Shown here: in pieces, positions 7,081-62,423 of the stretch
Layout of the letters: each line of letters begins with the position of its first letter
Position numbering within the stretch: position 1 is the stretch's first letter
NCBI GenBank assembly: GCA_021234155.1
Contig: JAJEKV010000072.1
Location: 4,999,620 to 5,063,619, forward strand
Length of the DNA stretch: 64,000 nt
Reading direction: 5' to 3'
Source of the DNA: Isoetes taiwanensis
Lineage: Eukaryota > Streptophyta > Lycopodiopsida > Isoetales > Isoetaceae
The notes under the pieces: generated by a model
Database searches by the model: none
What the model was told of the DNA's origin: nothing
Seen by the model: the letters and a program-made list of their open reading frames with translations, nothing else
Program-made: the position numbers and the translations under genes

Positions 7081-7084
7081 CTCC

Positions 7085-29500: not shown

Positions 29501-29731
29501 TTTCGCTTCACTGCCAAATGTCATGTCTTAATTAATGTATTTTTTGACTAGATTATAGATGGATTACAAAGTGATAATGTAGAAGTGCTATTGGCATTGC
29601 TAAATTCATCACTTCCCAACGTCTCACAAAAAATTAATATATCACAACATTCCATGTAGAGTTTCTTACTTTTTCCACAAATAATTATGCGTCTTGCATA
29701 TTATGAATGATGGACATTGTAGGGCAGCTTT

Positions 29732-34964: not shown

Positions 34965-35944
34965 CTCAAATACAGTTCCGGTGTAGTAGGCAAAGCCTCT
35001 GATCACTGAAGCGTCAAATTCTAACCAGTCAGCATATCCATAATGTGCAGCCAACTTAAAGAGCTCCTTCAGCAAAGCATCGCATTTGGTCCAATCAAGA
35101 CTGCCAATTTAGAGAAAGGTTTAATGGAACTCAACGCATTCAGGCTGCAAAGCATATTGAAACACCTTAAAACCTAGAGTAGTTCTATAAGATCTTTAAA
35201 AAAAATTCTAGATACTTATAGAGCATCAGATATTTCTTGGTAGAAGTATTCAATTCGTTTTATACCATGGTGGCAAATATACTAGGCATGTAAGATCTAT
35301 CCTTAACTCTACACACCCATTCATGACTGCAGGCATTTTTATACCATTGAGTATATGTCAATATCAATGCAGCTCCATCACCTTCTTTCTTTCTTTTATG
35401 CACATAGAATGTAAATATTTCAATGGCCGGCTGGGCAAAAGTAAAAGCAAATGCAAGCCCAATGTGTTTTCAAATCGAAATGCAAAATCTTTCAATATAC
35501 ATACGTCCAATCTTCAAGACAACTCTAGAAACCCCACTTTTGCAAAAAAAAATGCATTCCAATTGTTTTCCAAAAGATTTGATGAGCAAACATAGAACTT
35601 TCCAATTCCCAAATTTTCCACACTGAATTATTACGAAGAAACTGTAATAAAGAAACACAATAACCACCTTCCAGTTTATCCAGTGAACTTAATGAGACAA
35701 CATCTAATATGCCTTGAATGGCATCATCAAACAACCCCCAAAGACGTAGCTCCGCCTCAATCTCCTCCTTGAACACTTTCTCAACCTACAGTAGAATAGA
35801 ATAGTTGCAAAAAGGAATCAGAAAGCCCTTGGAGCATTAGTATTGGCATTTGTTGCTGGGCAAGTTCTACCTTGTCGACAATAATACAAACTGCGGAAAA
35901 GCTTTCCTGTGTTACACTATATTGATCGAGAACTGCTCGCAGAA
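34965..35944 (-). pseudogene. HisRS fragment, second copy
   Basis: Duplicate of 18386-19368 with the same exon-like pieces. A garbled patch near 35930 alters the start of the first piece. Confidence 0.7.
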
Positions 35945-36345
35945 CTTGAAGAAGGCAAATAATGGTCAGAATTTCCATGGCAATTCTAGCAAACTAGATT
36001 ACATGAATAATAGCTTTAAATATACTTGCCACTATTGCAATATGGTATTCACTCATTCATTGAACAACACTATAATGCACGCCATCTCTTACCTTCAATC
36101 TGGCAGGCTTCTCACTTAGCCTCTCGTGTAACAATCAACCATAGATTCCATTTTAAAATTTTTGGGCGAGAAGTTTACTTATCGCTCCTTCCAGTTGCCC
36201 TACTATGAATGTGATGTCCAGAAGAAAGCTAGTACTATGAATAGTATAGTGACTTTTTTTATGCATGATATAGATTCCAACTTCCAACTTCCAACTTGTT
36301 TTAGCCATATGTAGAATGCTCAAATGTGATACGCCGCAAGAGCAC

Positions 36346-36893
36346 CTTATACAGTGATACGTGCACCAAAGTTTCACAGGACTCATTCAAAGTTACTACA
36401 GCTTTTACGCTAAGACTTCTTAAGTGAGCCACATCCCTAGGAAATGGCACTACACCGAGCAACAAAAACTTGCACAAAACAAAAGCCATAACAATTAGGT
36501 TAATCTAAAATTATTAGTTGCAAGTGTATAATCGTAACCTTTAACATTCATATATTTTCAGAGACAATCCTGATAATAAAAAATAACATTAACCCCTGCA
36601 CTTTAACATTGAAAATAATGAGAGTCACTAGACCTCAGACATGCAAAGAAGCACTTGTGCTGTTAGGGTTTTCAAAAAATTTGCATAAATACAAAAACTT
36701 GCACATACCAGAAAAAGATTCTTGTGAACAAAAGACAAACTTGGTCTATTTCATCTCACCAATGATACTCTGCTTCAAGTTTATTCTGAATGATATTATA
36801 CAGTAAAGTTGGATAAAACAGTGCTCTAGCTCCAGCACCAACAAACAGTCGTTTTGCCTCCTGCTTATAAATTTTGAGACTAGAAACCCCAAA
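36346..36893 (-). pseudogene. PTPMT1-like fragment, second copy
   Basis: Duplicate of 20023-20570 with the same VPFPRDVAHL exon and the same Trp-to-stop change. The 253-bp difference between the large copies lies just left of it. Confidence 0.7.
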
Positions 36894-37693
36894 GTCATCT
36901 GCCTTACCTCATAGCGTGTCCACCTTCATTTTCTTTTCACTACAGAAACTTCTTCCACAGTCTTCTTTCCCTGAAAAGTCAAGTGTGCCAAATCAAATAT
37001 GGCCTGCAATCAAAGCGCATTTATTAAAGTTACCCAATATACTAAAATCAAATAACAACCCCTACGAAACCATTGTTACCCGCTTCATTACATCTCACTC
37101 ACAGAAACAGTTGTATTGTTCTTGCACATGTGATTAGTTACTTTGCACACAAGCATTTAGGTCTAAAAGAACTAAATTAACAATTTTCTTGGAAAATCTT
37201 ACATCATTCTGTCGTTCCTCCAACTGCTTTGCCTGATAGTGTCGAAGTCATTCAATATCAACTCAATGGAGAGAAAATGATCTCAGTTACAATAATTCAC
37301 TACATATCGTAGAAAGTAATGGAGCGACAAAGGTGAGATCATCGAGGACAAATGTAACCAAAAGGAAAAGGTGAATCTAGTTATTTACAATGCAATTATC
37401 ATGATCATCTCTGTCTTTGGCTTTGAGAACATGATATACTCATCGAAGGCAAGATGGCCAAAAGATTGAAAAATATTGCAAGTGTTAGTAGAGTAGTAAG
37501 GAAGGTGTAGTTGTCAATCACTTAAGTTTACGCACATCATGAACAAGAAGGCGTACATGAATGTAGAAGATGATGGCGTAAAACCCATACGCAAATAACA
37601 AGCGAAGTGGAGGAATTATAGTGTTCAACAAACACTTGGAAAATTTAAATTAGCACTGCATCAAACATGGCCAATTTTTTGAGGAAGCGGTCC

Positions 37694-38270
37694 GCTTCTA
37701 GGCTGCGTTCTTAACCCGGCTTAGATCCCTTCCTTTCGGAGTCCGGTCTAGCCTTCATACACAAAAAGTCATCGACTCCTTGCACATTCTCTAGCAACTA
37801 GTTCATGAGGAGGTAGTTTTTCCTGATCATCGTCATTTGTATCAAAATCCAAACCATTCCGCCTCATATCCTTCTTATTTGAACCGAAAATCTTAGACCA
37901 ATCTGGCACATTCATAGGAGCAGATTGATGCATAATAGGTATTCCTGCATCAAACAACCGGAAGAAGATTGGGGAATGGTCTAGAGGCAGATATAGACGA
38001 CATCCCCGTCTCCATATGAATCTTTGTCGAGACCAAGCCATCTTCTTCCAGTTGAAAGAAATTTATGATGATCCGTGCCTTCTATGTATTCTTCCAGATA
38101 ACCCTCTTCAGGCAGAGGTCTTAAATCCGAACCCCAAATGTCGTCTTCTTTTAGATCATTCATATCCGAAAAGTCATGAGATGTTGGTGCAGACCACAAA
38201 TGATAATCCATCAGTCCGTTAGACGGTTCGAACAGCGGCCCCCCAACCACAGGGGTGACCGCCAGTTTAC
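37694..38270 (-). pseudogene. S40-like (DUF584) pseudogene, second copy
   Basis: Duplicate of 21379-21965. It adds a frameshift after ECARS, at a site that reads CTG-containing TCATCTGACTCC in the first copy and TCATCGACTCC here. Confidence 0.7.
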
Positions 38271-39826
38271 TGCCAGTAGCAAGTTTGTAGCAGTTTTTCG
38301 TATATTCTAGGAATATACTGGCATATATCAAGAATATATTGAAAACCCATACAAGCAAGGGATTGCCCCCCTAGGGGCAACCCAAAAAGAAAGAAAGAAA
38401 GAACAACACCACTTAGGATCAACATCACAAGAAAGGTCAATGTTCATCTTTGTCTCTTATGGTGAATGGGTCTTTCTGCATCTATTTAATCCTACGCATC
38501 TATGAAGCTCATGGGAAGCACGTAAATAACTTTTCCTTTTGAAGATGAAGAAGATGAGTCTATCTCTAAGAAAGAAGGGAAGGGAAAAGAAAAAAAAAAG
38601 AAAAGAAAAGGAAAGCACTATATCAATCCTAAAGGAACATTCATGAGTCACTCAAATATTAATCCCAATTTGTTTGGAGATCAAACCACATTTTTTTTAG
38701 CACAATTATATTTGCAATAAATTAGCAAAATCATAAAACTACATCAAAAGAAGATATGACCTTATTTATTAGTATTTTTGGATTCTTAACACGAATATTA
38801 ACTCATTTATGTAGGTCAACCATTACTTCCATTTATGTGTATTATAATTCGCTACTTTCATCAACTAAATCTTAATTAAATCATTTGGAGTGACTTGGAC
38901 AGAGACCTGCGAGATGCTTCTCATATAAAGAAAGACAGTGTGCAACTGCATGACAACCTGGTCACCAATGATCAAGAGCTTATTTGCCGTATTGACAAGA
39001 AAGAGTTATGAAGTGTGTAGGAAATTGCAGACGACAATATTTAGGATGAAACAACATGACAACTAATACCCGATGGCTAAGTCAGATTAGATGTTGACTA
39101 TTGGTCATTGTTTTAGTACATATTGTTCTAGCTTTTGCCCATACTGATCTTTAAAGCATATACAATCATCTTATGGACCACATGCACAAGATAAAAAAGG
39201 ATTCTTCATAGTGATTAACCTTGGAAAGTTGATTATCTTTTAAAAAACCACATGTTTTAGAACTTGAAAATAAGGGCATAAGTTTTACAATCATTTTGAA
39301 TTTACTAGTGTTTTTAAATATTATTTCGTAATATGGTGATGTGGTTTTCATTTAGTTATTTTGAGTGGCTTTTTCTTTAAATACAGGGAGCAACAAATTC
39401 TTTTTTATGGGCATTTCTAACTAAAGGTGCCTTTGAAAAAGGAGGGGTGTATAGATTCCTAAGTTGCATTAAGGACATTAATATTGTCGGACGGAAAGGC
39501 GATCTCTAAATTGACTCTTTTGAAAGTGAGATTTTTAATTTATTCTTAATAGTTATCACTTAAAAGAAACGCCCGTTATCGCCACAAACCGGGGTCTCTC
39601 TTGCATAGTCGCTGCAACAAGCCTCTCCGATGGGGAAGATCTTCAGCTCTGCTCTTGATTAGGTTTTAGAATCGCCATTTTGTCTGAGAACAAATTCCGG
39701 CATTCAAGACAAGTAGATCAAATCTGGCATTTGAGGAAAAAAAGCTCGGCATTTGGAGGGCTTTAAATCAAATCCGGCTTTTGGGTAAGAGCCCAGAAAA
39801 ATTTCGCATTTCTTCCTTCAGCTTTA

Positions 39827-40530
39827 ATGGCGGACAGCCCTGTGAACAGGAAGGAGCCAAATCGGCTAGGAAGCAGAAAAAGAATCGTAGATCTGACAGG
39901 AAATAATTTCATCCACCGACCCACAACTGTGCGGTGTGAAAAAGAAGTAAAATCTTGGCTTTCGCTAAGGACTCTGTTAGGAATCATGTTGCCTTGCAGC
40001 AGGATCAACAGAGCCACAATGCAAGATGATGCAGAATCTGTACAAGGATCGACCATTACATGCACCATTTTGGGTACAGAAAGAGCAAAGGTAAACATGT
40101 GCATTCAAGAAGATGCTCGAGGAGCGCCGCTTCTGATGCTGGAGTTGGCTATGCCTACCTATATCCTGGTAAGGGAAATGTCTTCTGGTTTACTCAGAAT
40201 TGCACTTGAATGTGAAAAAAGAAAAGGGGAAAACAGACCACTGTTTGCTGAGCCAGTATGGTCCATGTTTTGCAATGGCCGGAAGGTTGGATTTGCCATA
40301 AAGCGCCATTGCACAGATAATGACAGAGCTATTTTGAGTCTGATGCAGCTTGTAACTATGGGTGCTGGGGTTATTCCTCTTGAAAGGGGAAGAAGGAAGA
40401 AGATGAGCTTATGTATATGCGAGCTACTTATGAGCGAGTTGTGGGTTCTCCAGATTCAGAGTCTTACCATATGATCAATCCTGGTGGTTCCCCTGGCCAA
40501 GAACTTAGCATATTTTTGATTCGAGCTTAA
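39827..40530 (+). pseudogene. MIZ1-like gene, frameshifted third copy
   Basis: Nearly identical to 23549-24253. Two compensating single-base indels near 40063-40088 garble a short stretch (ILGTERAK in place of IFGYRKSK). A further one-base loss near 40385 shifts the frame inside PLEEGKK and gives a premature end at 40474. The conserved C-terminal block survives in another frame up to 40530. All three indels lie in short homopolymer runs, so they may be consensus errors rather than mutations. Confidence 0.8.
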
Positions 40531-41391
40531 GCATCTCCTTAGTGCATAATGCAGTGCAGATCTGTCTGAGAAAAGTCTTGGCAGACATGTAGATAAATTA
40601 AAAAGAGGAACAAGTTTCTTGCAGCATTACTTTGACCATGTTCCAAGATGCACAGCTATTGATTCATATGTTAGGCACCTTTCATACAGGGAACAGTGTA
40701 CGTTTTCTATACATTGCAAAATGAATATGATGTGGATTTCATCAGTACGCTTCTGTCTATATGAAGTAATAAATATTGCTAACATAACTAACTGCATGTG
40801 CCAATCCTTTGTTTCAATGGATTGCTGCTCACAGCATTAGAAATTTAGTGCAGTGATTGTGTTGACAAGCTTGCAGTATATCTCTTAACTGTAATCCATA
40901 GCCATGCTTGCCTTGTTCTTCATTGTAATTGAAGTTATTCCATGTCAGTTTTTTTTTTCAAATCTCTATGTGGTTTCTTATGTGTCATCTTCCTTTGCCA
41001 TGCATGGCTTCTTAACCATGGTCACGATTTTGGTTCAAGCTTAGTGGTTTTATAGATGTTTTCCTTCTGTTTGCTTCTGAATCTGTTTAAGCAGATCACA
41101 TAACTTTCAAGGAGCTTCACAAGAGAGTCAGAATTTAGGTGTACTAGAATTGTTCTCTAACTCATTGCAGGTTTGCTACTTCCTTAGTGTTCACATCTGT
41201 TCAAGAAACGAAATACTAGCCATTAAATAATCCCATGCAACCAAGTGAACAAGTTGTGTTAGATCCATAAACTTTTCTTGTTAACATATTAGAAACCGGA
41301 AAACAAATATTGCCTGAATTATCTTCCCTTTTCCGGTGGGGAAATATAGGCGCCGTTATCACCAGCAAATTCTCAATCGAGAAGGGAAAGC

Positions 41392-43280
41392 ATGGCCATG
41401 GCCCTGGCGCCGCCCAGTTCATTGTACGATAGAGTGGGTTTATATGTTGGCATTTCAACACCTGCATGGCCTTCTTCACGAAGCAGCGCCAGTTTCTGCT
41501 ATCAAAATTGGACGGAGATTGCCAGTTATAGGCGAATTAATTATTCCTATTTTCAGGGGATCAGAAGAATACACCGAATTGAAGCCAAGTCTTCTGGTTG
41601 GGCCGCTCCAGAATCCCCTTATGACACTCTTGGTGAGCTCAATTTTCTTGTCTATATACCATAACTTGTTCTTAGCTTGTCCCTTTTCCTTTGCAGGTGT
41701 TGAAAAGGATGCTGATGACGAAGGAATAAGAAGTGCATACAGACGAATGGCAAAGCTTTTCCATCCTGATGGTACTTTTACTATTATCACCTTCAAGCTA
41801 GTGTTTTAAATTCAATGTCATCTTCCAGTAGCTGAAGCAGTTCTATTGTATCTACAATTTAAAACCTTTGCTTTAGTTTATCAATTCTAAGTGTAATCCC
41901 TCATTATCTGATAAAAAAGCCTTCAAGTGCTGAAAATGATTGTCATCTGTCTTTCCGAAGTTTTTAGCTTAATATCCTACCAACCAAAATGTGATAAAGT
42001 TGTATAAAAAACAAGAGCACAAACTTAAAATAAGGAATCCTTGTCAATTTTTTGTGATGAAAACATGCCCTTGGATGATAAGGACTTGGAGAATGTGAGT
42101 TTCTGTGGTAATTCACGCTTTCAACATGGAGAAGGCAATTGGTAGTAGTTGCTAGCCAATTTTGAATAGTAGCATATTATTTATATTTCTCATATTAAGT
42201 ACCTCCCTCCTGTTTGGTACTATTATTATTGCTTCTGAACACTAAAATCAGCAACTAATTAAAAAGGAACAGTCTTTCAGTTTATAATGGCAGTGAAGAA
42301 CTGGAGGAGGGAGAGACAATAGAGAGTCGCTTTATCAAGATTCAGGCGGCCTATGAATTACTTATGGACAGAGAAAAGCGCAGGGAATATGACATTGAGA
42401 ATTCTAGTAATCCTATGAAGGTTAATATTAGAGTTATTGATGAATTATGATATAGCATTCCACACTGTTACCTTATCTTTCAAATCATGGCGATATAGGC
42501 TTAACAAGAATATGCATGATGACCAGGCATCTAAGGCATGGATGGAATGGGTAATGAAGAAAAAGAAGGCATTTGATCAGCGAGGTGATATGGCTATATC
42601 TACATGGCAAGAGCAGCAGCAGAGAGACATGAATCTAAAAGCTCGTCGTCTTTCCCGGAACAAGGTAAGATATCAATTTATTTTTATACCTTGTGGATAT
42701 AGAATATAGTAGAAAGTAAAAGCTTCCATATGATACCAAAATTTACACTTACAAACTGCTTGGCTGATGTAATAGTAGAAAGTAAAAACTAAAGGTAATG
42801 CTGGACAGCAAATGTGACCATTACCAAGCATAACTATCTGTCTAGAACCCTTAGCCAAATTCAATGTCTTTTCTGCATGGTCTTTTAAAATATGCCCATC
42901 CTATGTGTTTGCATGATTTGTTCTTTATCCTTTTGTTTCCATTGCTGAGGCTTTTATGTTACCTATTGTTTAAGCTTACACTAATTTCTGGCAGATATTC
43001 CTTCATTTTCTGTCCTATGTATCCCTGTAGTCGAGTTTCTATATTTCTTATTAACATCTTGAGATTATTGCAGGAAGATCCAGAAGAGGAGAGAAGGCTT
43101 CTAGCAAAGGAAAGACAGGCTTCTACTACCAACATAGGGACTACCTTGAAACGACATAGTTTGGTGTTAAGAAAACGCGATCTCGTTAGAAAACGGGCAG
43201 AAGAGGAGGCGAATAAAAAACTGATACAACAACTTTTGGCTGAAGAGGGCCTAGAGCTTGATGACGATCGGTTCACATAA
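41392..43280 (+). CDS. J-domain (DnaJ-like) protein, probably plastid, complete gene
   Basis: Five exons with consistent phases: 41392-41632, 41697-41771, 42281-42420, 42527-42664, 43074-43280 (801 nt, 266 residues). Exon 1 gives a Ser/Arg-rich N-terminus typical of plastid transit peptides. The J domain starts at SPYDTLG and continues with GIRSAYRRMAKLFHPD, containing the HPD motif that stimulates Hsp70 ATPase, then FIKIQAAYELL and REKRREYD. The C-terminal half (ASKAWMEWVMKKKKAFDQRG, LRKRDLVRKRAEEE) is charged and matches plant J proteins without Zn fingers. It probably serves as an Hsp70 co-chaperone in the chloroplast. Introns are short and GT-AG. The upstream relative at 25115 lacks exons 3-5. 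Confidence 0.9.
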
Positions 43281-47216: not shown

Positions 47217-47826
47217 AAATGGGCTTCCCTATAACGTGGAGGACAATTAGGTGATGTTCTGTGCCACGTGTCAACCATCCGACGGCTGGAGCAGAGAATC
47301 GCCACAAAAAACAATGAGTAATTTTGTTACTATACTTCCCTGGAAATGAATGTCCCCTAAAAATTGCCACGTGGCGACATAGGGTTGGACGAGAGGGCAG
47401 AACAGCACCTAACTGTTCTTCACGAGCTAGATGAAGTATCGACCCACATGTTTGAAACCATTGAGAGCCTTATGCCAGCGTGAAACCATTGAGCCGTTAA
47501 GGTTGGGATAAACTATGCGGGGAATTTTATCTGGAGGGTTTTTTTTTAGATGGCTTGGAGGGTTCCATGGGAGAATATTCTTTGGAATATTCTATTGTGG
47601 CATGTCGCACCACTTGCCATTTTTTTTCCCATCTAGCAAAAGTCACTATAAGACCTTTTAAAATAAAACAATTTTGCGTTCATCTAATGAACATGTGTAT
47701 TGTGAAGGTTATAACATATACCATAGTGAGATCAGTTTGAGTCAACATTTAGCGAAATTGCTGATTACCACACTACTAACTATTATAATTTGATATGGAA
47801 ATCTTCCTACCAAGAACTGTTTTTCC

Positions 47827-50800
47827 TCAGGCGAGGACCCTTTGGAGAACAACCTCTGTCAATACAGGCTGAATGATGTCCAAGAAAAACCTGGGGTCGT
47901 GGTTCAGGACTTTCGCAAATACGTACATCAGATGTTTGCATGGAATGTATATCCTTTTCAGTTCTCTACCCATGAAATCCGGGCATGTGCAGGTGGGATG
48001 CTTACATACCCTCACTGTATAAGTTTCATCTGGTCGACGCAACTCGTAAGCAACATCCCTATTGGTGATATTGACCTTTACAGACTCAATATCACACTCC
48101 AGTTGTAAAGCTTGATTAAGCTTTGTTTCAGCTTCTACACAAAGCTTCCCTCGTCTGTTCATGCGCTTGCCAAAACGTTCCATGAAGTGGACAGAGCTGG
48201 TCAAAGTAGAACAATTCACACTAGCCATATCGGGCATTGAGTTCCGTGGGGTAATCCCTCTAACGGAATAGTTCTCCCTCTCCAATGTTTCCAACTCTGC
48301 ACTAGTTATATTTATTCCTTTTGCCACAGGCCAATCTGCTGGACGAGTTGGTATGGCTATGATGCCTGCAGCTGGATAGTAAGTATGCTGCACATTTTGA
48401 GGACAAAACCAAAACCTTTGTGTGACTTCTCTCCCATTTACTTTCCTTTGTCCAGTGAAGCATGGTGCAATAGTAGACTCTGTACGAACTTTATTAATTT
48501 CAGCATTGCATCTTCGACCATTGGACTTTATTCTACCTTGACATCTTATTTTACTACCAGGCTCTGTTCTTCTAATAGCCCATTCCCCTAGCAGCAAATC
48601 ATACTCCTGTACAAGGTATGTAGCATCATCAAAGATTATATTCCGCTTTGCTGAAGCATCTACCCTAACTCTAGACCGAGTATGGGCCCTCTTGTCTGGA
48701 CGATGGCTACCGGAACCCACATCCTTGTTATATTCCGTTCTATCTCTGGTCCTTTTTAGCACAGTCTGATTGTTTCCTTTTGAACCTGCATGAATGGGCC
48801 TTAAACCACTATGTAAAACTGTCGAGTTGACTGCGCTGACACAAGCAGATGGAGTAACGTTACTAGTAACTGGAGTGCCCATTCTGCACATTAAGGTATC
48901 CATCCCTGGACCTATTCTAACAAAATTGTGTTCTCTATGTGCTTTGCACTTTGTACTTTGCAGCACAGCTTCTGTCAGATCGTACAAGCATGCATCGTAC
49001 AAGGATAATTTATTCACGTACCCTCTTGATGCTAGCCAACTAGCATGCACAGATTCTGATAGATTAGTGTTAGGGATTTGAGCTCTGCACAAATTTAGAT
49101 GCTCTTGTCTATGCTCTTGGAATATGTACTTATTTGTGTGTCGTTGAAGACATTGTTCCCAATGGAACTTACAGCCACGTTCCTTTCCTTCCATGGGCTG
49201 GCCATCATTGAACACAACCCGAATTGCATTCCAATTAGCCTGAGCTTCGTCTGCCATGAATCCTTTGAACTGAGCAGGTGGTGAGTTCCTTAGTATCATA
49301 ACTTTGTTTAGCTTTGTCCAGAACTTTATCTGAGCTTCCGTATCCTCCGTTTTCATGTCACATGTTGCTATTGTAAGAAGGCAACGCATACTGCACATTT
49401 CAAAAATTACAGTAAGTAAATAAGTAGTTTGAAATGGCAAGTGAAAAACATGACAGATAAGAATATCACCTTGGGTCATACACATGACATGCTAAAGTAG
49501 TCCACTCAACAGTGCGTTTTACGTGGTCAAAATGTACCCAAGAGTTTTCTAAATCTCCTCCTGGACGCATTCGATTGACGAGTTCCACTCCAGAACCTGC
49601 TCCTGTTGTGGACATTTTGAAGATATAGCATCGACCATTTTCTTCATCATGAAGTTGGTATGGAAATTTGGAACCGTGGAAGAATTGGTATTTGCAGTGC
49701 TGTTTTAAGTATATGATCTTTCCAACTTCATCTTTTTGGTGGACTTTATTTTCAAGACTCTTATTTATCCATTGACGTATCCTACAAAAGAACCAATTTT
49801 TAGAAAATAAAGAGCATCAAGTAGTTACAATTTAAACTTGAGCATAAGAATACTTTCTTTTGTTGCAAAGAGGTTGAAGTTGCTTCAAAAGATTGTCTAT
49901 TTTATCTCTCCCCCACAACTGTATGTCATCACAATCAGTAGTTGTTATCAAGTTGTTGACAGTGAGCTCCATAGCTACCTCCATCTGTATCTGTTTTGCA
50001 CCCTTCTTGCTTCCTATAGAAGCATTAACTCTACTATTGACCATCTGGTGCAGCAAATGTATTTCTTCACGAGTTGGAGGAGTTCTGATAGGATGATCAT
50101 GTAAACCAACATGAATGGATAATCTTGTGTGTATGGCTTCGTCAGGTATAACATAATATATCACGCAACTGCATAGTGCGAGACACGTTGGCTGTTCCTC
50201 ACAGTACTCACAAGCTAGAATTCCATGTGAACGGGATATAGGACCAAGTGCAGGTAGCTGCTTCATAGTTCGCTTCCACTGGACATCATTTGGCACACTT
50301 CTGGAAAGAAAATAGTCACATGTTGGATTCATGCACCTTAAATGACCACAGCACTTGGAATATTTAACTATGCCATCGAATGAATGACTTGTCTTCTCGG
50401 GCTTCGTCCAGAGATGTGGATCAAACTTTCTTTCCATGCCTGCCATAGAATTCAAGTCATCTGGAGGTAGCTCAAATACCACATTGCCATTGTAATTAGA
50501 GGGTAGACATCTCACTGATATTGGTGCAGTAACAGATGAACACAATCTCTTAAGTTTGCTAGATCCAAAACTACCAACAAGTGTTTGAAACGTGGAAACA
50601 ATGTTTACAGTACTCTCACGAATATGCTGGATCGGACTGTCAACAATTATTGGTGCATGAGGAGTGCTGACCTCAAGAATAATAGGCGTGCCTTCGACTG
50701 TGACAAAGTTCCCATTATAGGCTAGGGCCACATACACACTCTGCCCCTCTTGATTCACAACTTCGTCAAGAAGAATTGTCATTCCTCTACCACTCTTAGA

Positions 50801-50974
50801 TTGCACAACACACAATTTTTCATTACGAAATTGGAAACTCTCACACAACCATTTCCTAGACAGTTGATATTCTCCATTCACAAAAGAGCATACCATTCTC
50901 AATGTTTTACCAGGTGATGAGATTATCACGTCATTTGCAGTGAAAGAAAGAATCTCACAGTCGTTTGCAGCCAT
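47827..50974 (-). CDS. MULE-type transposase with SWIM zinc finger
   Basis: Three coding exons on the minus strand, all with GT-AG junctions and matching phases: 50974-49854, 49781-49470, 49390-47827 (2997 nt, 998 residues). About residues 200-290 form a Cys/His zinc-binding domain of WRKY-GCM1/FLYWCH type (CCGHLRCMNPTCDYF, then GLHDHPI). About 430-560 resembles the MULE core (EWTTLACHVYDP, TIATCDMKTED, FMADEAQANWNAI, CKFHWEQC). The C-terminus has a GRF-like Cys cluster and a SWIM finger near 939-962 (CTCPDF then IPCKH). An ATG 96 bp upstream at 51070 is an alternative start. No internal stop is present, so the gene may be active or domesticated. Confidence 0.82.
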
Positions 50975-51490
50975 TGCAACAACAAATAACTTCGTGCTAC
51001 ACAGAACTCTTCCGCAGGAAACTAGACTACTAAAACTAGAATAGCTAACTTGAATACGTTGAACAATCAATTGAGGTCCTCAAAATAATTAATTACTGTC
51101 ACGAATATTCATAATTAATGAATTGCACGCCAACAATTTCGTATGCTAATTACAAAATGCAATAATTTCAGCCGGTTTAAAACGTTTAAATATTTTAGGG
51201 CGTGTGAAAATGTAGGCGTTAAAAAATAATGTATAAGAGAAGCAAGAATTTGAATAATGCCTTTGCAACCTCTTTTGCTTTTGAAAAAATAGATGTTTTG
51301 TTGTTCGTGAAATCTGTATGGGAATTAATGATTTTTTAACCTCTATTGTTTTTTTAAAGTTAATTTTCGAAAAAAACCTCGAAACATTCCTCTGTACGTC
51401 GGAAAATATCTCTGTACCTGTGTTTTTTCAAAATACCTCTCCCAAAATCGTTCGAAAATCATCTGTTCTTGGAAATTTGTCTACCCATTA

Positions 51491-51525
51491 CAGACCTAGT
51501 GCGGCGGCGCACTCCATCCAGCAAG
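51491..51525 (+). repeat. Leader repeat R1 (hairpin plus splice-donor-like end)
   Basis: CAGACCTAGTGCGGCGGCGC begins the unit. GTGCG-GCGG-CGCAC can fold as a 5-bp stem. The unit ends CAAG|GTAGG, like a 5' splice site. Confidence 0.6.
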
Positions 51526-51635
51526 GTAGGCTCGATTTGAATAAGCTGCATGATTTGCATGATTACCATGATTTCCACGATGTTTTCCATGTTTTTTCCA
51601 GCTGCAATCCGACCTAGTGCTACTGCTACTGCTTC

Positions 51636-51673
51636 AATCCGACCTAGTGCGGCGGCGCACTCCATTCAGTAAG
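51636..51673 (+). repeat. Leader repeat R2
   Basis: Same GACCTAGTGCGGCGGCGCAC core, ending TAAG|GTAAG, a strong donor match. A partial extra copy (CAATCCGACCTAGTGC) lies just upstream at 51605-51620. Confidence 0.65.
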
Positions 51674-51781
51674 GTAAGATCTGTTTTGGAAAAACACATG
51701 TCTGTGATTTGTGAGGGCAAACTTCTGAGAGATTTACCATGCCTATTTTCAGCTGTATTCATATCTAAATCCTTGCTCCAG

Positions 51782-51846
51782 TTATGTAAGCTGCTCAAGC
51801 CTTTCATACCTCTGGATTTAATAATCAGTTTATACGGTTTCATGCC
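51782..51846. repeat. 65-bp direct repeat, copy 1
   Basis: Identical to 53120-53184 (begins TTATGTAAGCTGCTCAAGCC). Each copy follows a leader repeat (R2 and R3), so the leader plus downstream block was duplicated as a unit around the GH9 fragment. Confidence 0.85.
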
Positions 51847-51859
51847 CCAGCTCAGAGTT

Positions 51860-52714
51860 TCATGCCCCAGCTCAGAGTTTCATGTCTCCATTAGTGTAAA
51901 TATACTGGAGATATTTACCGCCCATGCTTGCTTTGTAAAGCCATGCAGCTCCCCATAACAGTTCATCCTGTACATGAATAATCTCAGTATTAGGGCAAAG
52001 TTTGCTTGATCAAACATGTAAACAACTTCGCCAGAGTAGTCATACCTGAAAACCTGAGTAAGAAGTGTACAGAACGGAGAACATTGATGTAGCTACCTCT
52101 GAATTTGTCTGCAAACTCAAACATCTGCCATAGCCAGGTTAAAGTTAGCTAGGTGCAAGGAAAAAAAAGGAAGAAAAAACTAGTTTATGATGTGGTTTTA
52201 GCAAAAGCAATGAGATATATACCGCCTAGCTTGACCGGTGGAGTCTGTTGGAGTAAGAAGGGTCACATTGTTCGAAAATCATGGATGCAAAGAAAAGGGG
52301 GCGGTTTGCCTCGGAAGCAACATCTGAACCAGGATTTTCTTCTTTGACTTTATAAGCAGTTCTTGGAGTATCCATATCTTTTGGTCTCTCTCAGCATTGG
52401 TGATCAGAGTTAGGATCTCCAACCTGAAATAAGTGAGAAAGAAGTGCATTAGAGAAATGCATGGATTGATTTGCTCAAGCATTTTTTTGTTTCTACAAGA
52501 ACTTGCTTACCTGAACCCAGAGCTCAGTTGGACTTGTGTATGCTTTGAGAAAATAGTCACTGGCCCACCTAACTGCAGCTTGTGCATGACCCAATTCTCC
52601 TTCTTTTGAAAGCTGGTTTCCATAGCTCCATGATAGCATTGTTGTTGTAAATGCCATTGGAAAACCAAACTTAATGTTGTGCCCAGAATCATAATATCCT
52701 CCAGTCAAATCTAC
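51860..52714 (-). pseudogene. Captured GH9 endoglucanase (cellulase) fragment
   Basis: Minus-strand exon-like pieces in gene order with introns retained. 52714-52511: [28 protein letters not shown], then [12 protein letters not shown]. 52423 to about 52215: VGDPNSDHQC, a TGA stop in place of the Trp of CWERP, then DMDTPRTAYKV and NPGSDVASE. About 52132: MFEFADKFRGSY. 51967 to about 51860: DELLWGAAWLYKAS. The catalytic DAGD motif reads DSGH. No N-terminal or C-terminal exons are present. It lies inside the MULE, as in Pack-MULE gene capture. Confidence 0.85.
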
Positions 52715-53033
52715 CTGCAAAATGTTTGGTGGTTATTTCAGTTACTTCTAATCCTTTACAAATCATTGGCTTAAAGATAGCTGAAATCAGTTTTTCTTTT
52801 TTTTCCTTTTTTTTCCCCTTACATTTTGAAAATGTCCATCTGTGAGTCCAGAATCACACCTCCAATGCATTCTTTGCTCTGGAGGAAGCTTTTCTGATCC
52901 CATTCCCTCATATAACAATATGCTCTTTGAAAGGGCATATGTCATGCGTTTGCTATTTTAAATTTTTGAAGACCTTAAATTTTGATGCTCAGAATCTGAT
53001 GGCAGAAGACAAATTTTGAAGTCATGGCAACAG

Positions 53034-53072
53034 ACTGCAGACCTAGTGCGGTGGCGCACCTCTTAGATTAAG
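53034..53072 (+). repeat. Leader repeat R3
   Basis: ACTGCAGACCTAGTGCGGTG begins the unit. The stem GTGCG/CGCAC is kept with a changed loop base, and the unit ends TTAAG|GTAAG. Confidence 0.65.
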
Positions 53073-53119
53073 GTAAGCTATCTGATTCACATTTTGATGT
53101 CTACGTTATCAAATTCTGT

Positions 53120-53184
53120 TTATGTAAGCTGCTCAAGCCTTTCATACCTCTGGATTTAATAATCAGTTTATACGGTTTCATGCC
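53120..53184. repeat. 65-bp direct repeat, copy 2
   Basis: Identical to 51782-51846 and lies 48 bp after leader repeat R3. Confidence 0.85.
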
Positions 53185-53596
53185 AAGTGCCATGTTTGTA
53201 TTATGGTTGCCATGTCTTATTATATGGTTGCCATGTCTTCATCCCTTCCCTTACCAAACGTTTAGCACTGGTTACTAGTAAATTCACTGGTTACTAGTAA
53301 GACTTGAATACTAGTATTATTGTTGTGCCAAAGATCATATGATGTTTAGATAGAGAAGGCATAGTTTATCGTGGTACAGGGAAACCATTTGCCAAGTATT
53401 ATATCTAGATAAAAGAAGCAAGTGAATCCAAGTATTAAATCCAAGTATTATATCTAAGATAAAAGAAGCAATCATAATAAGGCAAATGAAGCCTAGTGCC
53501 ATGTCTGTATTATTGTTGCCTTATTATATGCCATATTTGTTGTTGTTGATAGTGGTGTCTCTTATAATGCAGAAGACAACAGACTACAGACACTAG

Positions 53597-53635
53597 ACTG
53601 CAGACCCAGTGTGGCGGCGCACCTCTTCCAAAAAG
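53597..53635 (+). repeat. Leader repeat R4, likely 5' UTR exon of the next gene
   Basis: ACTGCAGACCCAGTGTGGCG begins the unit. The stem becomes GTGTG/CGCAC, so a G-T wobble keeps pairing in RNA. It ends AAAAG|GTTGG. An acceptor (TTGTGCAG) lies at 53729, just upstream of the ATG at 53749. Confidence 0.6.
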
Positions 53636-53748
53636 GTTGGTTCTTTCATTCATAATGTTTGTTTGTTAAACCAAAAAAATGTTCATTGCATTCATTTTAT
53701 ATCTATTGATCACTTTCGGTGTTGTGCAGAATAGGGACATGGTTTGTT

Positions 53749-56700
53749 ATGGTTCACACTAGAAACAAAACTCCCATCCCATTTGTTCCTATAGCGTACA
53801 CACCACCAAAGCGAAGGCGAGAGAAGCATTCATATTCACTAGAGGTATCCAAAGAAGAAGCAAAATCTATAGCCCTTGACAAAGCGTTAACTGAATCAAC
53901 AATGACCAAAGATATCGAAAGTCCGATGTCAGAGAAAGACAAACCAAATGATGTTCAGGATATGACTGCCACTGATCCAGAATTTGCCCAGGTGAGTGGT
54001 TCTCAAATTGGATCATTTTCTTTTTCTCCTTGTGAAATATTTAATCATGAACTTTGTATAGGTTTTTGCTCATGAGATGGTGGCTGACATAATGAGCAAA
54101 TGTCGCATTGAGAGAGGAACAGAACCTCCCAAGATTCCCCTTTGTCGTGTTTTACGAAATGAAGCCGTGCGTGCAGTGTCAAAATCTGATACTAAAATGA
54201 GAGATATTCTTCGTAATGACGGATATTTACCTGAGAAAGGAAAGTTTGTACTATCCATGAAATCCATTAAGGGATGTGATGTTTCAGTTACAGATTCTAT
54301 TCGCTCTAAATGGGATGATTATTGGAATGAAGTTAACGATGACTTTGAGAAGGAACTTGAAGCTTCCGAGGAGTGGAAGGACTTGTCAGGTAAAATGTTC
54401 CTTTGTTGGGATGGTAACCATAGAACAGTAGCGTGGATGGAGGAGATACGTTACAACCATCAATTCTGTTATGAGAAGAGCAGGCACATTCGAGTCGAAG
54501 TGTCTTTCATTGATGTGGAGAAGTGCCATGTTCAACAACTCATTTCGGCCCTCAACAGAGTTAACGAGTAAGTGGGTTGCATGTTTTGCATTGTTATGGT
54601 TTTGAATTTTGTTGATGATTTTCATGTGCATTTTAGGTTGAATGAAGATGGTGTTGTTCAAAACACAATGAAGGATACAATATACAGTGTCCACAAAATT
54701 GTTACAGCAAATCCAGAGCAATATTTTTCCAAACTGGATCCGCAATACCTGGCTACATTGAAGATTAAAGATAATGCTTCTTCCAGCACTGGCACGGAAC
54801 AATGGTATCAACTACCACGTCTGGCTTACTGCAAGATACTATTCCAGGTTACATGACATACTTGTTTATTAAACCTTTTGAATTTATTTGTCCTCATTTG
54901 TGTGCTCGTAACAAAATGGATTGTCCTTGTAATTGACATAGAGGCAAATGGATAAGGAGATAGCAGTTGAATTGGCAGCAGCAAAAGATAATGATGACAA
55001 AGAGGCCTTGCGAACAGCAGCCACAAGAAGGGTCCAAGATAAATGGGTACAGAAAATGGGAAAGTTGCTTGCCATAGTCAATACTGCATTGGGTCCAAGT
55101 TGGTTAGATGCTGTTACTAGAGCTGATTTTGACACCAAAACATCACGATTGTCCATTGAAAAGTTGCTTGAAATGGTGAAGGCTAAGGTACCCAATGACA
55201 TAAGAGATCGTTGGGTGCATTGGATGTCGTCTGGGTCTGCTATCCACAGCACGTATGGGATCCCTAAGGGTGACAAAAGCTTTAAGGACTGGATAAAAAA
55301 GGAAGTTTGGTTGGAGCACTTGGTTGAGAAGTCTTGTGAAGTCTTCACTGAGACTTCTTCAACATATCACTTGCAGATTCAAGTTCCACATGGTGCAGAC
55401 CTGGAAAGTTGGTTCCGGGCCTTCAAATTAAAGAACAGAGCCAACATGTTCAAGCCATATCACAAACATATGTCTGCAACTACAGCTCCTGTCTCTTCCT
55501 ATGAGATAGATAGAAGTTCAAGAAGAGTAGCCTATAGGTATAATAGCTATTTCATTTATTTCTCTTGTAAGAATCCGTCTAAATGTTATGTGCAATTTTG
55601 CAGATATTACAAGCACATTCTCCGTGAAAATTTTTTAGCAAATCTTCCAATTGAATTGGAATGTTGGAAGTCCACAGATGAAAATTCAATGTACTCAAAG
55701 AAGGGGAACTTGGATAGGCCAGGTGGTCTAAGTGATTATGAAGCTCAAAATTGTCCTTGGTGGATAGATCTTGCTAGTGGAGAATATCCATTAAGTGAGG
55801 AGGAAGAGTATAAGGCAAATGTCAAAGTTTCAAAGCTCAAGAGCAAAGTGGATTATAATGAAACGATAAAAAGAAGTTTGGATGCTCCAATTGATAAAAG
55901 AGATGTGAAAAGAAAGAGAAAAAATCAAGAAAAGTCACAAGCGTCTGGTAAATAATTTCAATTATTTTTTTGCATTCATGTGAATATAGATCTTGAATAA
56001 ACGTGTGACACTTTCTTAAACATGTGGCATTCTCATGCGAAGAATTGATTTGGATTTATCCGAGGCTACTTCAGAGGAAGATGTCCAACATTTTGACATT
56101 GCCAAGGTGATTACAAACACTTCGCTTGAATTGCATTGTGGAGATATTCAGCGTACGTATGAACAATATTCAAGGAAGGTAGAAGCTCCAGTTTTCCAAA
56201 ATGTTAGAGATTTTGCAAAGAGAAATGCAAGGAAGTTGCATGAGTACAAGAGAGGTGGTAATGTCAAGGATTGGGGGTTTGACTTAATAATTATTGATTT
56301 CCCTACAAATAACATGTCATGCGGGGAAGATTTTGAGATTCCTCCATGGAACGTATGCAACACTTCTTTAATCCAAGCTTTGTTTCTCGTTGGCACATTG
56401 TGCCTTGATGATGATGGTTTGGTTGGTCTCTATTTCTTGGTTGAACAAGCAAGAATAGTGGAGAAAGAGGCAAGATTAAAATGCTTGGAGCCCTTTAGAA
56501 CTTACTACTTGCATCGGGATGCCCTTTTGGATACATGAAGGACGAGGTGGGAAGTTCACAAGCAGCGTGTTGCTAGTGACTTTATGGTCAAGAAAGGGTA
56601 CTTCACCAAGCATTCAGAGTAATGTTCAATTCTCAAGTAAGTGATCTTCAATTCTATCTATTACATTATAAGCTATCTTATTTGATGTATATTGATTTTA

Positions 56701-57328
56701 TGTTTATCTTAGTTTTACTATATCTGGTTTCATGTTTTATTAATATTTGTCCATTTCAGACAAACGTCTTTCAATCTCCAAGCAATCTCTTGATCATTTT
56801 TTCATGGAAGGCAGTAAACTTACAGCAAGTCCTACTACGCCTGGTAGGAAATCCACCGAGAAGTCCATTTCATTCATGGAGTTTATTATTGAGAATTTTA
56901 GTCCAAAAGAAGGCTTGGTATTGGACCTACTTAGCTATGAGGTTGGCATTGGTAGCATCTGCTATTTTATCTCGTCACTGCTATGGATTGGACAATGATA
57001 AACTGTTAGTGGAACATGTAAAGGCATCTCGTCTTTCAGCCTTAGCAAGTGTTTCACAAAAGTTTGATGAAAGGATTATTGATCATCCCGAGGATTCAGA
57101 CGACGAAGTGGCAGAGGAAGATGAAGAACCTACATAGTATGTTTGTTTTTTTCTACTGTAATTTTTTAGCATTTGTGTCAATGCTACTTATCTTTTTTAC
57201 GTATTAGCATTCTACCTGTGTATGCAGAATCAGTAGCATCACTAATGTCAACAAGGGAATCCCCAATTCAAGTGGAAAGGAGACGTCGACGTTGTCTGCT
57301 TGTAGATGATGAGTGTGAAGAAGGATGA
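53749..57328 (+). pseudogene. ParB/Srx-like plus beta-class DNA methyltransferase-like gene, 3' part disrupted
   Basis: Exons with matching phases: 53749-53991, 54062-54567, 54637-54847, 54942-55537, 55604-55947, 56075-56636, 56760-57136, 57208-57328. The first 787 codons are open. Residues about 197-206 (WDGNHRTVAW) fit the ParB/sulfiredoxin DG-HR motif. The C-terminal half has beta-class methyltransferase order: DLIIIDFPTNN where DPPY is expected (about residue 708), CLDDDGLVGLYFLVE, then VLDL and SRHCYGLDNDKLLVEHV as a motif I region. Damage: in-frame TGA at 56536-56538 (one transition from CGA), a frame change near 56618, another near 56935. The end is RRRRRCLLVDDE. Its place in the MULE suggests a transposon accessory gene. 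A host gene or bacterial origin by transfer are alternatives. Confidence 0.65.
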
Positions 57329-57723
57329 CGACTTCTTGTGGCTGTATTTTCATAACATTATTGTTTCTCATAGTGTTTTGGCTTCCGTTGTTTACTTCAA
57401 ACAATTTGCTTTACAATGCTATCTTTTTCTATGCTTATACTGTGGATATGATAATAACAGTATGAACACTAAGGCAATTATATTTATTATAATAGTATGG
57501 GCAGTATGATGTATGGACATAACATAGTAAGGAGTATGGTGTATTTAGTATAATGGTATGAACAATATACTACTTTCGTGTAGTTGTATTTATTATAATA
57601 TGTAGTCTAGAAGTGCATCTTTTATACCTCAGAACCATTGACAAAATTAAAAAAAAAAAAGAAGACACAATCTAATAAACCCTCTAAACCCTTCCCAGAA
57701 AAACCCTCCAAAAATTCGCACTC

Positions 57724-58036
57724 AACTATGCCAGCATTATTCTAGGTCGTCAAAACAACACAAAAGCAAAAAAACATAGAATAGAAACAAATTGAAACTA
57801 TTCATGCTTATAGTTATTACGTGCTAACCATAAAAGAGCATATACACTTGGTTCAGACAATTTTTTGGCATTGCCATTTAGGCACATTTGAGTAACTCCT
57901 GGTGCTTTAGACACAATCACTTTTAGAACTGAACAATTGCAGTTATTTCAATCAATACACTGGAGATTGCATTTGAGTTCTACTGCCAGGCCTGCATAAG
58001 GCGTCGCGCTAAATTCTTGTATTATTGTTATTGTTA

Positions 58037-58222: not shown

Positions 58223-59160
58223 TCAAACTAGAGGCTCTAAGACCCAATTTCGAATGCTGTTATCGAACTGCTCATATAATCGTAACAGATGTGTGTAGAA
58301 CTGCTTCAGACTACCAACACTAATAATGGAAATATCCATTGCCTGCACTTCTTTGTACAGAAGGGTTGCAGATACAAGCCCGAACATATATAGAGAATTG
58401 CCAACCTCACTCTGTTCATCAAGGGCACAGGGCACTAGTTGCTTCATATAGGAGGACCAACCTTGGATGGGAAAGCGACAATCCTAGGGACAGCTCGTTG
58501 GACCAAGCAACTTTGGAATCCATCTCAGAAGTTAAAGGACCTAGCTGCACTCTTTCCAGAATCTCAATCAACTAAATATCAGCAGGCTGGCTCCGGCTTT
58601 CATCAATAACTTGCTCTCAGCCCCCATCCGTGGTTTATACTGCATATCTGAAACATGGATTTGTTATTTTATTACTGACCTTTAAAATGCAATGCTGTCA
58701 TGTAAAAGTAGAACACCAGCATTGGTATAGTTTTCACTATCTCCTTTATTGACGCTCCAAGTGAGATACAGCCGCTGCTGGCATAGTGATTCTAATATCA
58801 GATATGGCCTTTGTGGCAAAAAGAAAATTTCTTTGCCTGCAATGTATGTTGTCAAATTTTCTTCCAATTGCAAAACCGACCCATTGTTATCGTTTCCAAT
58901 TTCTCGTAGTTTATCGCCTGATTATGCCACTTCCTCAGCACCATAATCCAGTAATTGCTCTTAAAAGTGATGTCTTACCAGTTCCACTTGAACCCATTAT
59001 CTGTAACAATCAAATTGTTTTCATCATTGGTTCAATCTTCACTCTCCAATTGATGTACAGAAAACTTACCAACAACTGTTCTCCAACCACCAACATCATC
59101 ATGCCTCGGGAAGTCAAAGTTCTCAATTTGCAAAATACTTACACGATGCTGGTCATCACC
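58223..59160 (-). pseudogene. ABCD-type ABC transporter nucleotide-binding domain pseudogene
   Basis: Minus-strand pieces follow ABCD half-transporter order. First is Walker A IMGSSGTGKTSLLRAITGLW (near 58990), followed by a stop. Next come EIFFLPQRPYLILESL and LYLTWS (near 58800), then a damaged signature and Walker B, ELSLGL...PRLVLLYEATSAL (near 58480; Asp to Tyr). The C-terminal end is ISIISVGSLKQFYTHLLRL then NSIRNWVLEPLV. The switch region reads GSL where GHR is usual. Stops and shifts make it non-functional. The transmembrane half is not seen. Confidence 0.75.
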
Positions 59161-61023: not shown

Positions 61024-61596
61024 GTTCAAAGAGAATAAGGATGCTGAGAGAAGAGGAGCCTTACCGATGAAACGTCGATGAAGAACTCGCAATAAGTAGC
61101 AAACGCCTAACCCGACGAACGGCCCAAAACGCATGCGATGCGTGCATGCGACGATGTACAATGCATGCATGCTCGTCTTGGAGCAAGAATGCCGATTCGC
61201 TACGCGAATCGACGACATTCTTGCACTGCGACTCGCATGAAACCAACAAAGCGCCCGAATACCAAAGGACTTCCTTAACAAACTAGGATCGAGGACGAAG
61301 GTCACAGGATGAAGGCTAAAGGCCTAAAAAAGGACAAAGAGGAAAGCAACGCCAAATTAGCCAAACCAGTGTGAAGAAGCCCCTCCCCCCGCCGGAAACA
61401 ATTCAAAGAGAATAAGGTGCTGGCGAGAGAGAAGAGGAAGCGCCGATGAAACGTCGATGAAGAAATCTGCAATAAGTAGCAAACGCCCAACCTGACGAAC
61501 GGCCCAAAACGCATGCAATGCGTGCATGCGACGCATGCAATGCATGCATGCTCGTCTTGAGCAAGAATGCCGATTCGCTACGCGAATCGACGACAT
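61024..61596. repeat. Tandem duplication of about 190 bp units, offset about 375 bp
   Basis: 61024-61215 and 61392-61596 share AAGAGAATAAGG, GATGAAACGTCGATGAAG, a GCATGC-rich stretch and an exact hairpin CGATTCGC-TAC-GCGAATCG. The block TTGCACTGCGACTCGCATGA near 61220 also occurs near 60518. Non-coding. Confidence 0.75.
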
Positions 61597-62423
61597 TTTG
61601 AGATGTTATCAAAATGCCCCTGATACTGATATGGCTACGAAACTACTAGTAGCTAGAGATAAGAAGAATGATTGGAATGAGTTTCAGGCAACGGATGGCT
61701 TTGGCATAGGGCGAGATCACTACTATGGAGTGATAAATTGGAGCTGATGATTTGGGCTTTTAATCAGATATGGAAAATGATGATGATCCGGTTATGGAGC
61801 TTGCAAACATTTCAGTTTCGAGCAGGGCCAGAAGCAACAGGTTGAGAAAACCCTTCTTGGGGCAGAGTAAGTTTCTCTTTTGTTTTTTGTTGTAGGTTTT
61901 GAGCAATGGCTCCAATTCTCAAGAAGCTGTCAAATTCTCCACTTGTTGTACAAATTACTAGCAAAATCCATCTACAATAGTGCTTTGAACTTCCTATTGG
62001 TTGCCGGATATATGCAACCTAGAAGCAACTCGCATGCATGCCACAATTACCTCCGAAAAAACACTGAAGGAAAGCTCTGTGGGCCTGCCACAATTATCTT
62101 CAAAAAAACTCTGGAGGAAGGCTCTGCAGCTCTGGGCATATCTTTGTCTAGTTTTGGATCACTCTGCTCTTATTTTAAAGCATAGACTGCAAATTCACAG
62201 GGCAGAAAGGTCTGGCATTGCACCAGTGGATACCATACTAACCGATTTTTGTGAAAATCGCCAAATTTTGAGTTGCTACTGGTAGATTGTTTGTTAGATT
62301 CAAAGCTAGCGCTACAGGGATCATCTGAAAGCTATAGATCAAGGGGTATTTCGACAATATATCAAAATACAGGGGTATTTTGATAAATACCTCAAAATAG
62401 AGGGGTATTTTTAAAATCTTCCC

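Follow-up and report, generated by a model that had tools for sequence, protein, structure and literature searches.

DNA methyltransferases joined to ParB-like domains have been described as cargo of algal transposons. The Ectocarpus element Sola1-1_Ec32 is a 21.5-kb Sola-1 DNA transposon that encodes a 1104-aa protein combining a ParB-like part with a DNA methyltransferase, and its describers point to further cases in green and red algae (PMC12477816). Mutator-like elements (MULEs) may carry additional ORFs or domains, partly antisense, and their target duplications measure 8-11 bp (PMC6446971). In VANDAL MULEs, the targets of VANC are repeat arrays in non-coding DNA (PMC6446971, PMC5735166, PMC10398659).

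Here we analyse a 64,000-nucleotide stretch of Isoetes taiwanensis DNA (the window). Our preferred reading, to which we assign a probability of about 0.57, is that a Mutator-like DNA transposon of 10,205 bp inserted here once and is now a decayed copy, with a MULE-type transposase and an accessory protein of the ParB/amino-methyltransferase type known from algae. The initial annotation had placed perfect repeats against imperfect inverted ends at 47519 and 57723, and this is confirmed: the insertion spans 47519-57723 and is flanked on both sides by a perfect 8-bp AACTATGC. The boundary features are:

47511..47518, plus strand: left target site duplication AACTATGC, abutting 47519 exactly (from sequence)
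47519..47568, plus strand: left terminal inverted repeat, imperfect, with GAGGGTT at offsets 16 and 40
57674..57723, minus strand: right terminal inverted repeat, with GAGGGTT at offsets 16 and 40
57724..57731, plus strand: right target site duplication AACTATGC, abutting 57723 exactly (from sequence)

The inverted termini show 76% complementarity over 33 nt; ungapped, 30 of 50 positions are identical, and the identities include same-offset runs of lengths 12 and 7. The heptamer GAGGGTT, inverted between the two termini, is absent from both strands of the element interior and occurs six times in the rest of the window. The element thus has the terminal inverted repeats of a MULE, imperfect and about 46 bp long, and its 8-bp duplication falls in the MULE range of 8-11 bp. 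Repeats of this length are short by MULE standards, which counts against the MULE reading.

The inverted-end score of 31 is the best of 15,564 pairs of identical 8-mers lying 3-15 kb apart in the whole window (runner-up, 28). It also leads the 1,740 8-mer pairs that lie 0.8-12 kb from each other between 46.5 and 59 kb, where the second-best score is 24. The same score was reached somewhere in 5 of 60 windows simulated by a first-order Markov model; taken by themselves, the ends therefore have only moderate significance across the window. A rival pair at 48283-48297 and 58837-58846 also scores 31 when the scan admits duplications as short as 5 or 6 bp, but falls short of 31 with duplications of 7-10 bp. 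Among 2,000,000 random pairs of 50-mers, 10 had at least two same-offset runs of length 7 or more and 4 reached 30 identities. Since the simulations and the rival pair leave room for chance, the argument is carried by three features: the ends enclose the two genes snugly, the duplication is 8 bp long, and the heptamers are paired. An empty site was sought inside the window, where a 16-kb tandem duplication (9033-25644 / 25643-41921) stops short of the element.

The minus-strand gene encodes 998 aa in three exons separated by GT-AG introns:

49854..50974, minus strand: transposase exon 1, with a Cys/His cluster ending in ...HDHP
49470..49781, minus strand: transposase exon 2, with the first D, in HFDH
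47827..49390, minus strand: transposase exon 3, with the second D in MADEA, C-x2-H, the E in NLSES and a SWIM-like CxC...CxH

By its motif, we take the Cys/His cluster of exon 1 to be GCM/WRKY-like. Two relatives, P0001 (E 4.6e-145, 31% identity) and P0002 (E 7.1e-89, 35% identity), were the sole matches among 3,067 candidates. The motif distances of P0001 (D-D 66, D-H 31, D-E 127, W at E-18) resemble the spacing of the catalytic positions of Muta1 (D214/D283/H307/W401/E419), which supports a Mutator-like assignment of the minus-strand protein. P0001 holds seven W in the 70 residues preceding E, so the W at E-18 is not striking by itself. In the window copy, the second D lies only 65 residues from E, 62 fewer than in P0001, and W is missing at E-18; its transposase is therefore probably inactive. 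The Pfam MULE transposase domain matched neither the window protein nor P0001 or P0002 at E up to 1, and we thus term the element MULE-like and not a proven member. The SWIM-type CxC...CxH motif is present and conserved in P0001; the Pfam score for SWIM in the window protein is sub-threshold (E 0.062, 13.3 bits against a cut-off of 19.6). No relatives of the transposase were found by tblastn in viral contigs, and a plasmid megablast with 47400-51100 as query gave no match. The 998-residue transposase of the initial annotation is supported as MULE-like, with SWIM below the Pfam cut-off; the annotation had overlooked the 62-residue shortening.

The plus-strand gene diverges from the transposase gene in a head-to-head arrangement and comprises six exons, which encode 787 aa before an in-frame TGA is reached:

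53749..53991, plus strand: accessory gene exon 1
54062..54567, plus strand: accessory gene exon 2, with a ParB/Srx-like segment containing WDGNHR; related to P0003
54637..54847, plus strand: accessory gene exon 3
54942..55537, plus strand: accessory gene exon 4
55604..55947, plus strand: accessory gene exon 5
56075..56538, plus strand: accessory gene exon 6, with the motif IV-like DLIIIDFPTNN, ending at the TGA at 56536-56538
56748..57137, plus strand: putative methyltransferase C-terminal remains, with motif X/I-like EKSISFMEFIIENFSPKEGLVLDL followed by a frame change (from weak profile matches and frames)

The methylase half is interrupted by the in-frame stop and the frame change. Canonical amino-methyltransferases have [DNS]PP[YFW] as catalytic motif IV, in place of which this gene has DFPT. 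The multi-exon ParB/Srx plus beta-class methyltransferase-like gene of the initial annotation is supported as a divergent second gene with motifs of both types, with both domains recognisable at motif level only and with a disruption of the methylase that had gone unnoticed. Since both genes are decayed in the window copy, function cannot be taken for granted for either product. With a transposase core 62 residues short and a broken methylase half, the element has probably survived here as a non-autonomous relic.

The ParB and methyltransferase assignments of the plus-strand gene are made from motifs, and neither is statistically secure. With exons 2 and 3 as query, the sole match among 121 candidates was P0003 (E 1.5e-20, 39% identity over 145 columns, WDGNHR included); the full-length protein gave no match among 7,995 scored candidates. 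A ParB identity found no support in Pfam, NCBIfam, PDB sequence searches (nothing meaningful, best E 1.3) or phage tblastn, the last giving no match with the plus-strand protein, its joined C-terminal remains or P0003, and tblastn with the ParB-like exon found no relatives in viral contigs or prokaryote genomes. In PHROGs, the match of P0003 to a family of ParB-like partition proteins had E 0.43, and that of the exon itself to an unknown family E 0.1. As a positive contrast, the E. coli ParB-like protein YbdM matches Pfam ParB_N at E 2.9e-5. AlphaFold models of exon 2, alone or with P0003, had a mean pLDDT of 35 and were useless.

For the methyltransferase half, the joined C-terminal remains drew three PHROGs matches, all to methyltransferases (E 0.0076, 0.11 and 0.21), and no match in Pfam or NCBIfam. 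A 51-aa piece matched Pfam N6_N4_Mtase at E 0.091, and the piece 56748-56996 alone in PHROGs and 56748-56993 in Pfam gave none. These methyltransferase matches are weak and vary with the piece submitted.

It could be argued that the plus-strand gene has an unknown fold and resembles ParB and methyltransferases by convergence or chance, as neither domain has a family match above cut-off. The ParB-like exon was aligned by hhalign with 12 ParB-family proteins (YbdM and 11 phage proteins, picked for their annotation or through tblastn against YbdM); its score of 20.1 (probability 1.4%) is not significant, and 2 of 40 column-shuffled controls beat it. We nevertheless find this explanation rather unlikely. 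The only stretch that hhalign aligned is the DG-x-HR motif (WDGNHR/DGFHR), the methyltransferase matches point to one function and coincide with the expected places of motifs X and I, exon 6 by itself has a weak match to a BMT5-like rRNA methyltransferase family (E 0.017), and the algal gene carries this pair of domains (PMC12477816).

Between the two genes, the interval from 51.5 to 53.7 kb is a patchwork:

51493..51512, plus strand: intergenic repeat GACCTAGTGCGGCGGCGCAC copy 1, with a donor-like AAGGT after it
51641..51660, plus strand: intergenic repeat GACCTAGTGCGGCGGCGCAC copy 2
52225..52715 (approximate limits), minus strand: captured plant GH9 endoglucanase gene fragment (from Pfam and frames)
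53040..53059, plus strand: intergenic repeat GACCTAGTGCGGCGGCGCAC copy 3, with 1 mismatch
53603..53622, plus strand: intergenic repeat GACCTAGTGCGGCGGCGCAC copy 4, with 2 mismatches

The core of GACCTAGTGCGGCGGCGCAC is palindromic at 12 of 14 positions, and the plus-strand gene may have a 5' untranslated exon that includes copy 4. The first GH9 piece (68 aa) matches PF00759 at E 1.9e-21; the second, recognised by eye beyond an intron-like gap, has an in-frame stop. MULEs habitually take up host DNA, and the GH9 fragment fits such capture.

A perfect 65-bp direct repeat flanks the GH9 fragment, and this patchwork would suit a second transposon, nested in the MULE and bearing the plus-strand gene, so that the two genes would be unrelated. 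Such nesting appears very improbable to us: a scan for inner ends, which allowed duplications of 5-10 bp at distances of 0.8-12 kb, gave no score above 27, whereas the outer ends score 31. The remains of the plus-strand gene come within about 590 bp of the right terminus, a distance that shrinks to about 400 bp with the last short open frame included. The gene could also be captured cargo from a host, a symbiont or another transposon, with no role in transposition. Its decay and the GH9 fragment captured alongside it speak for this view, and we regard it as a serious though unlikely alternative, because the gene still has six exons that agree in phase and are bounded by AG/GT splice signals, and because an unrelated algal transposon is reported to have a gene of this type in the same orientation relative to its transposase (PMC12477816).

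We then propose a model based on the single Mutator-like insertion. The ends and the duplication show that the element was inserted by a transposase, leaving an 8-bp target duplication. By motif spacing, this element appears to encode a MULE-type DDE transposase and, head to head with it, a putative accessory protein of the ParB-plus-amino-methyltransferase kind found in algal DNA transposons, the latter by motif resemblance. In working relatives, the transposase may bind the paired GAGGGTT sites at each end, while the ParB-like part of the accessory protein may bind element DNA, and the protein as a whole might mark this DNA or shield it from silencing. It is tempting to speculate further, by analogy and as a distinctly long shot, that a land-plant MULE lineage took up a bacterial-type ParB-methyltransferase, independently of algal elements or by exchange with them, and that the protein came to serve as a sequence-specific protector with little catalytic function. 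Much as VANC does with its repeats, the ParB-like part would recognise the four copies of GACCTAGTGCGGCGGCGCAC between the divergent genes, in their promoter region, and keep both genes unsilenced, a self-recognition resembling that of parS/ParB but housed in a eukaryotic transposon.

Among described systems, the bacterial fusion Bce_0392 of B. cereus likewise joins a ParB-like domain to an amino-methyltransferase, although we detected no sequence-level relationship between it and the window gene (PMC5512222). The DNMT retrotransposons of dinoflagellates and charophytes are also transposons bearing a DNA methyltransferase; theirs are C5-cytosine enzymes in retrotransposons, whereas the present gene is amino-methyltransferase-like and sits in a DNA transposon (PMC5890265). 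As in Pack-MULEs, a host gene fragment (GH9) has been captured inside the element. Pack-MULEs have lost their transposase (PMC6446971), whereas this element keeps a nearly full transposase gene; the Pack-MULE class was rejected, since that gene sits beside the GH9 fragment.

The element resembles MuDR and VANDAL MULEs, which have a DDE transposase with a SWIM-type finger, additional, partly antisense ORFs and repeat arrays in non-coding DNA (PMC6446971, PMC5735166, PMC10398659); its own transposase is DDE- and SWIM-like by motif. It differs from them in terminal repeats of about 46 bp, in an undetected Pfam MULE domain and in an accessory gene that is ParB/methyltransferase-like.

The closest parallel remains Sola1-1_Ec32. 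In both elements, each longer than 10 kb, an accessory gene of ParB-like plus amino-methyltransferase architecture, in the window element a putative one, lies inside the transposon ends on the strand opposite the transposase (PMC12477816). The initial annotation had regarded such cargo as undescribed in plant MULEs; the Ectocarpus precedent means that it is not new in kind, and no case in a MULE or a land plant is found among the literature matches listed (titles and abstract openings). Sola1-1_Ec32 is a Sola-1 element of a brown alga, whereas the present one has a MULE-like transposase and resides in a land plant; unlike the algal gene, that of the window is broken and has a non-canonical motif IV (PMC12477816). 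If confirmed in intact copies, this type of accessory protein would extend to land plants and accompany transposases of no fewer than two unrelated superfamilies. ParB-methyltransferases would then seem generally advantageous to transposons, and marking of, or protection against, silencing by plant DNA methylation could be put to the test.

The interval 47519-57723 (10,205 bp) is a real, decayed insertion that resembles Mutator-like elements (MULEs). The initial annotation of a transposon at this place is upheld by a perfect target duplication and by two termini that form imperfect inverted repeats.

Features of the element and its flanks
47511-47518 and 57724-57731: perfect copies of the target duplication AACTATGC, flanking 47519-57723
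51493, 51641, 53040 and 53603: four copies of GACCTAGTGCGGCGGCGCAC (at most 2 mismatches), in the divergent interval between the two genes
51782-51846 and 53120-53184: perfect 65-bp direct repeat, either side of the GH9 endoglucanase fragment

At both ends, GAGGGTT occurs twice, with its first base at positions 16 and 40 counted inward from the terminus; there are no further copies inside the element on either strand and six in the rest of the window. Aligned without gaps, the outer 50 bases of the two ends are identical at 30 places, including runs of 12 and 7 bases. Among 2,000,000 random pairs, two or more such runs occurred in 10, and 30 identities were reached by 4. The element pair has the best score both window-wide (31 versus 28 for the next; 15,564 8-mer pairs) and locally at 46.5-59 kb (runner-up 24; 1,740 8-mer pairs). 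This score was attained somewhere in 5 of 60 simulated windows, and another place pair near 48.3 and 58.8 kb ties with it once duplications of 5-6 bp are permitted. Both genes fit closely between the two ends: one terminus is 308 bp away from where the transposase stops, and ~590 bp (~400 bp counting a final short open frame) separate the other from the last stretch recognisable as methylase. The boundaries 47519-57723 are taken as established.

The minus-strand gene encodes a 998-residue transposase from three exons with GT-AG introns, in which Pfam detected a SWIM finger alone, below threshold. Of the 3,067 candidates from a search of 5.8 billion proteins, two were relatives of the transposase: P0001 (E 4.6e-145; 1050 aa) and P0002 (E 7.1e-89; 721 aa). 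The aligned proteins contain an N-terminal cluster of Cys and His residues that closes with H-x-H-P, followed by HFDH, MAD and C-x2-HW motifs. In P0001 and the window protein the MAD motif reads MADEA, and these two also have NTNLSES and a C-terminal CxC...CxH in common; P0002 stops before this region.

The cited passages name D214, D283, H307, W401 and E419 as essential in the functional MULE Muta1, whose activity is abolished by W401A (PMC5225508). The D-D spacing is 66 in both P0001 and the window protein and 69 in Muta1, and the D-H spacing is 31, 29 and 24, respectively. In contrast, the D-E spacing is 127 in P0001 and 136 in Muta1 but only 65 in the window protein, which also lacks the tryptophan found 18 residues before E in the other two. 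Since P0001 has seven tryptophans inside the 70 residues preceding E, its tryptophan at E-18 is weak taken alone. Between the second D and E, the window protein is 62 residues shorter than P0001, inside one open exon. In the alignment, P0002 keeps part of the missing segment, which favours loss in the window copy over gain in P0001; tblastn with P0001 did not find this segment elsewhere in the window. Because W401A kills Muta1 activity and the window protein has no tryptophan at E-18, the transposase of this copy is probably inactive.

The divergent plus-strand gene comprises six exons whose phases and splice sites are consistent (787 aa), and its open frame ends at an in-frame TGA (56536-56538). 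Exon 2 contains WDGNHR, similar to the DG-x-HR signature of ParB/Srx proteins, with a strand ahead and a helix behind seen only in very-low-confidence AlphaFold models. The 199-aa protein P0003, from a contig of 1,008 bases, aligns with exon 2 over 145 columns at 39% identity and conserves WDGNHR. The ParB-like part had no Pfam or NCBIfam match. PHROGs matches were at chance level (P0003 to a ParB-like partition family, E 0.43; the exon to an unknown family, E 0.1), and hhalign against 12 ParB-family proteins aligned the DG-x-HR motif alone, at shuffle level.

Exon 6 carries DLIIIDFPTNN, positioned like motif IV of beta-class amino-methyltransferases, without PP[YFW]. Taken alone, it weakly matches a BMT5-like rRNA methyltransferase family (E 0.017), beside two unrelated families (E 0.084 and 0.24). 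Downstream, in a different frame, EKSISFMEFIIENFSPKEGLVLDL is similar to motifs X and I; the surrounding 51-aa piece matches Pfam N6_N4_Mtase (E 0.091, profile 164-189 of 221). The joined 309-aa remains matched three PHROG families, all methyltransferases (E 0.0076, 0.11 and 0.21), and nothing in Pfam or NCBIfam; alone, the stretch 56748-56996 had no PHROGs match and 56748-56993 no Pfam match. An additional frame change lies near 56990, 3' of the motif X/I-like stretch. Both the ParB and the methyltransferase identities are likely, and this copy's methylase very probably no longer works.

The divergent interval between the two genes spans 2.8 kb and contains a minus-strand GH9 endoglucanase piece (E 1.9e-21); a second GH9-like piece, recognised by eye past an intron-like gap, contains a stop. 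The 65-bp repeat is possibly the trace of GH9 capture or of a gap-repair event. GACCTAGTGCGGCGGCGCAC is a 20-bp, GC-rich pseudo-palindrome (core 12/14 palindromic) that has no copy in the rest of the window even when 3 mismatches are allowed, and 0/100 in the shuffle control. Repeats within non-coding DNA are likewise the VANC targets of VANDAL elements, in the passages cited (PMC10398659), and a protein-binding role for GACCTAGTGCGGCGGCGCAC is speculative. Since a donor-like AAGGT follows every copy within ~15-20 bases, the copies may instead be duplicated 5' untranslated exons.

Features in the rest of the window
359-1035, 23575-24251 and 39853-40528: DUF617-type gene copies, by DNA similarity (Pfam scan on the second only)
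5796-6233 (minus) and 6923-7525 (plus): reverse-transcriptase fragments on opposite strands
9033-25644 and 25643-41921: head-to-tail tandem unit copies, 16.3-16.6 kb each, ~98-99% identity
61025-61219 and 61402-61597: ~200-bp direct repeat, 90% identity, right flank region

The 16-kb head-to-tail pair is a recent tandem segmental duplication that ends short of the transposon; a scan of one copy per gene identified DUF617, Senescence_reg and DnaJ-like genes in it. DUF617 and Senescence_reg are land-plant families, and their presence alongside GH9 is consistent with a land-plant host. The DUF617-type copies are MIZ1-like; the first copy is ~80% identical to the other two. The reverse-transcriptase fragments are remnants of two retroelements.

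The decayed insertion carries a probable ParB-methyltransferase-type accessory gene, which may be either a regular part of the element or a single capture. The cited passages of a MULE survey describe several groups with additional or antisense ORFs or domains, including oomycete MULEs with a SET domain; neither a ParB domain nor a DNA methylase is mentioned in them (PMC6446971). Among the literature matches listed (titles and abstract starts, with subscription journals mostly outside), there was no MULE or land-plant element with ParB-methyltransferase cargo. The proposal that such cargo is categorically new does not stand: a study that also points to green and red algal cases describes a ParB-methyltransferase gene opposite the transposase in the Ectocarpus Sola1 transposon Sola1-1_Ec32 (PMC12477816).
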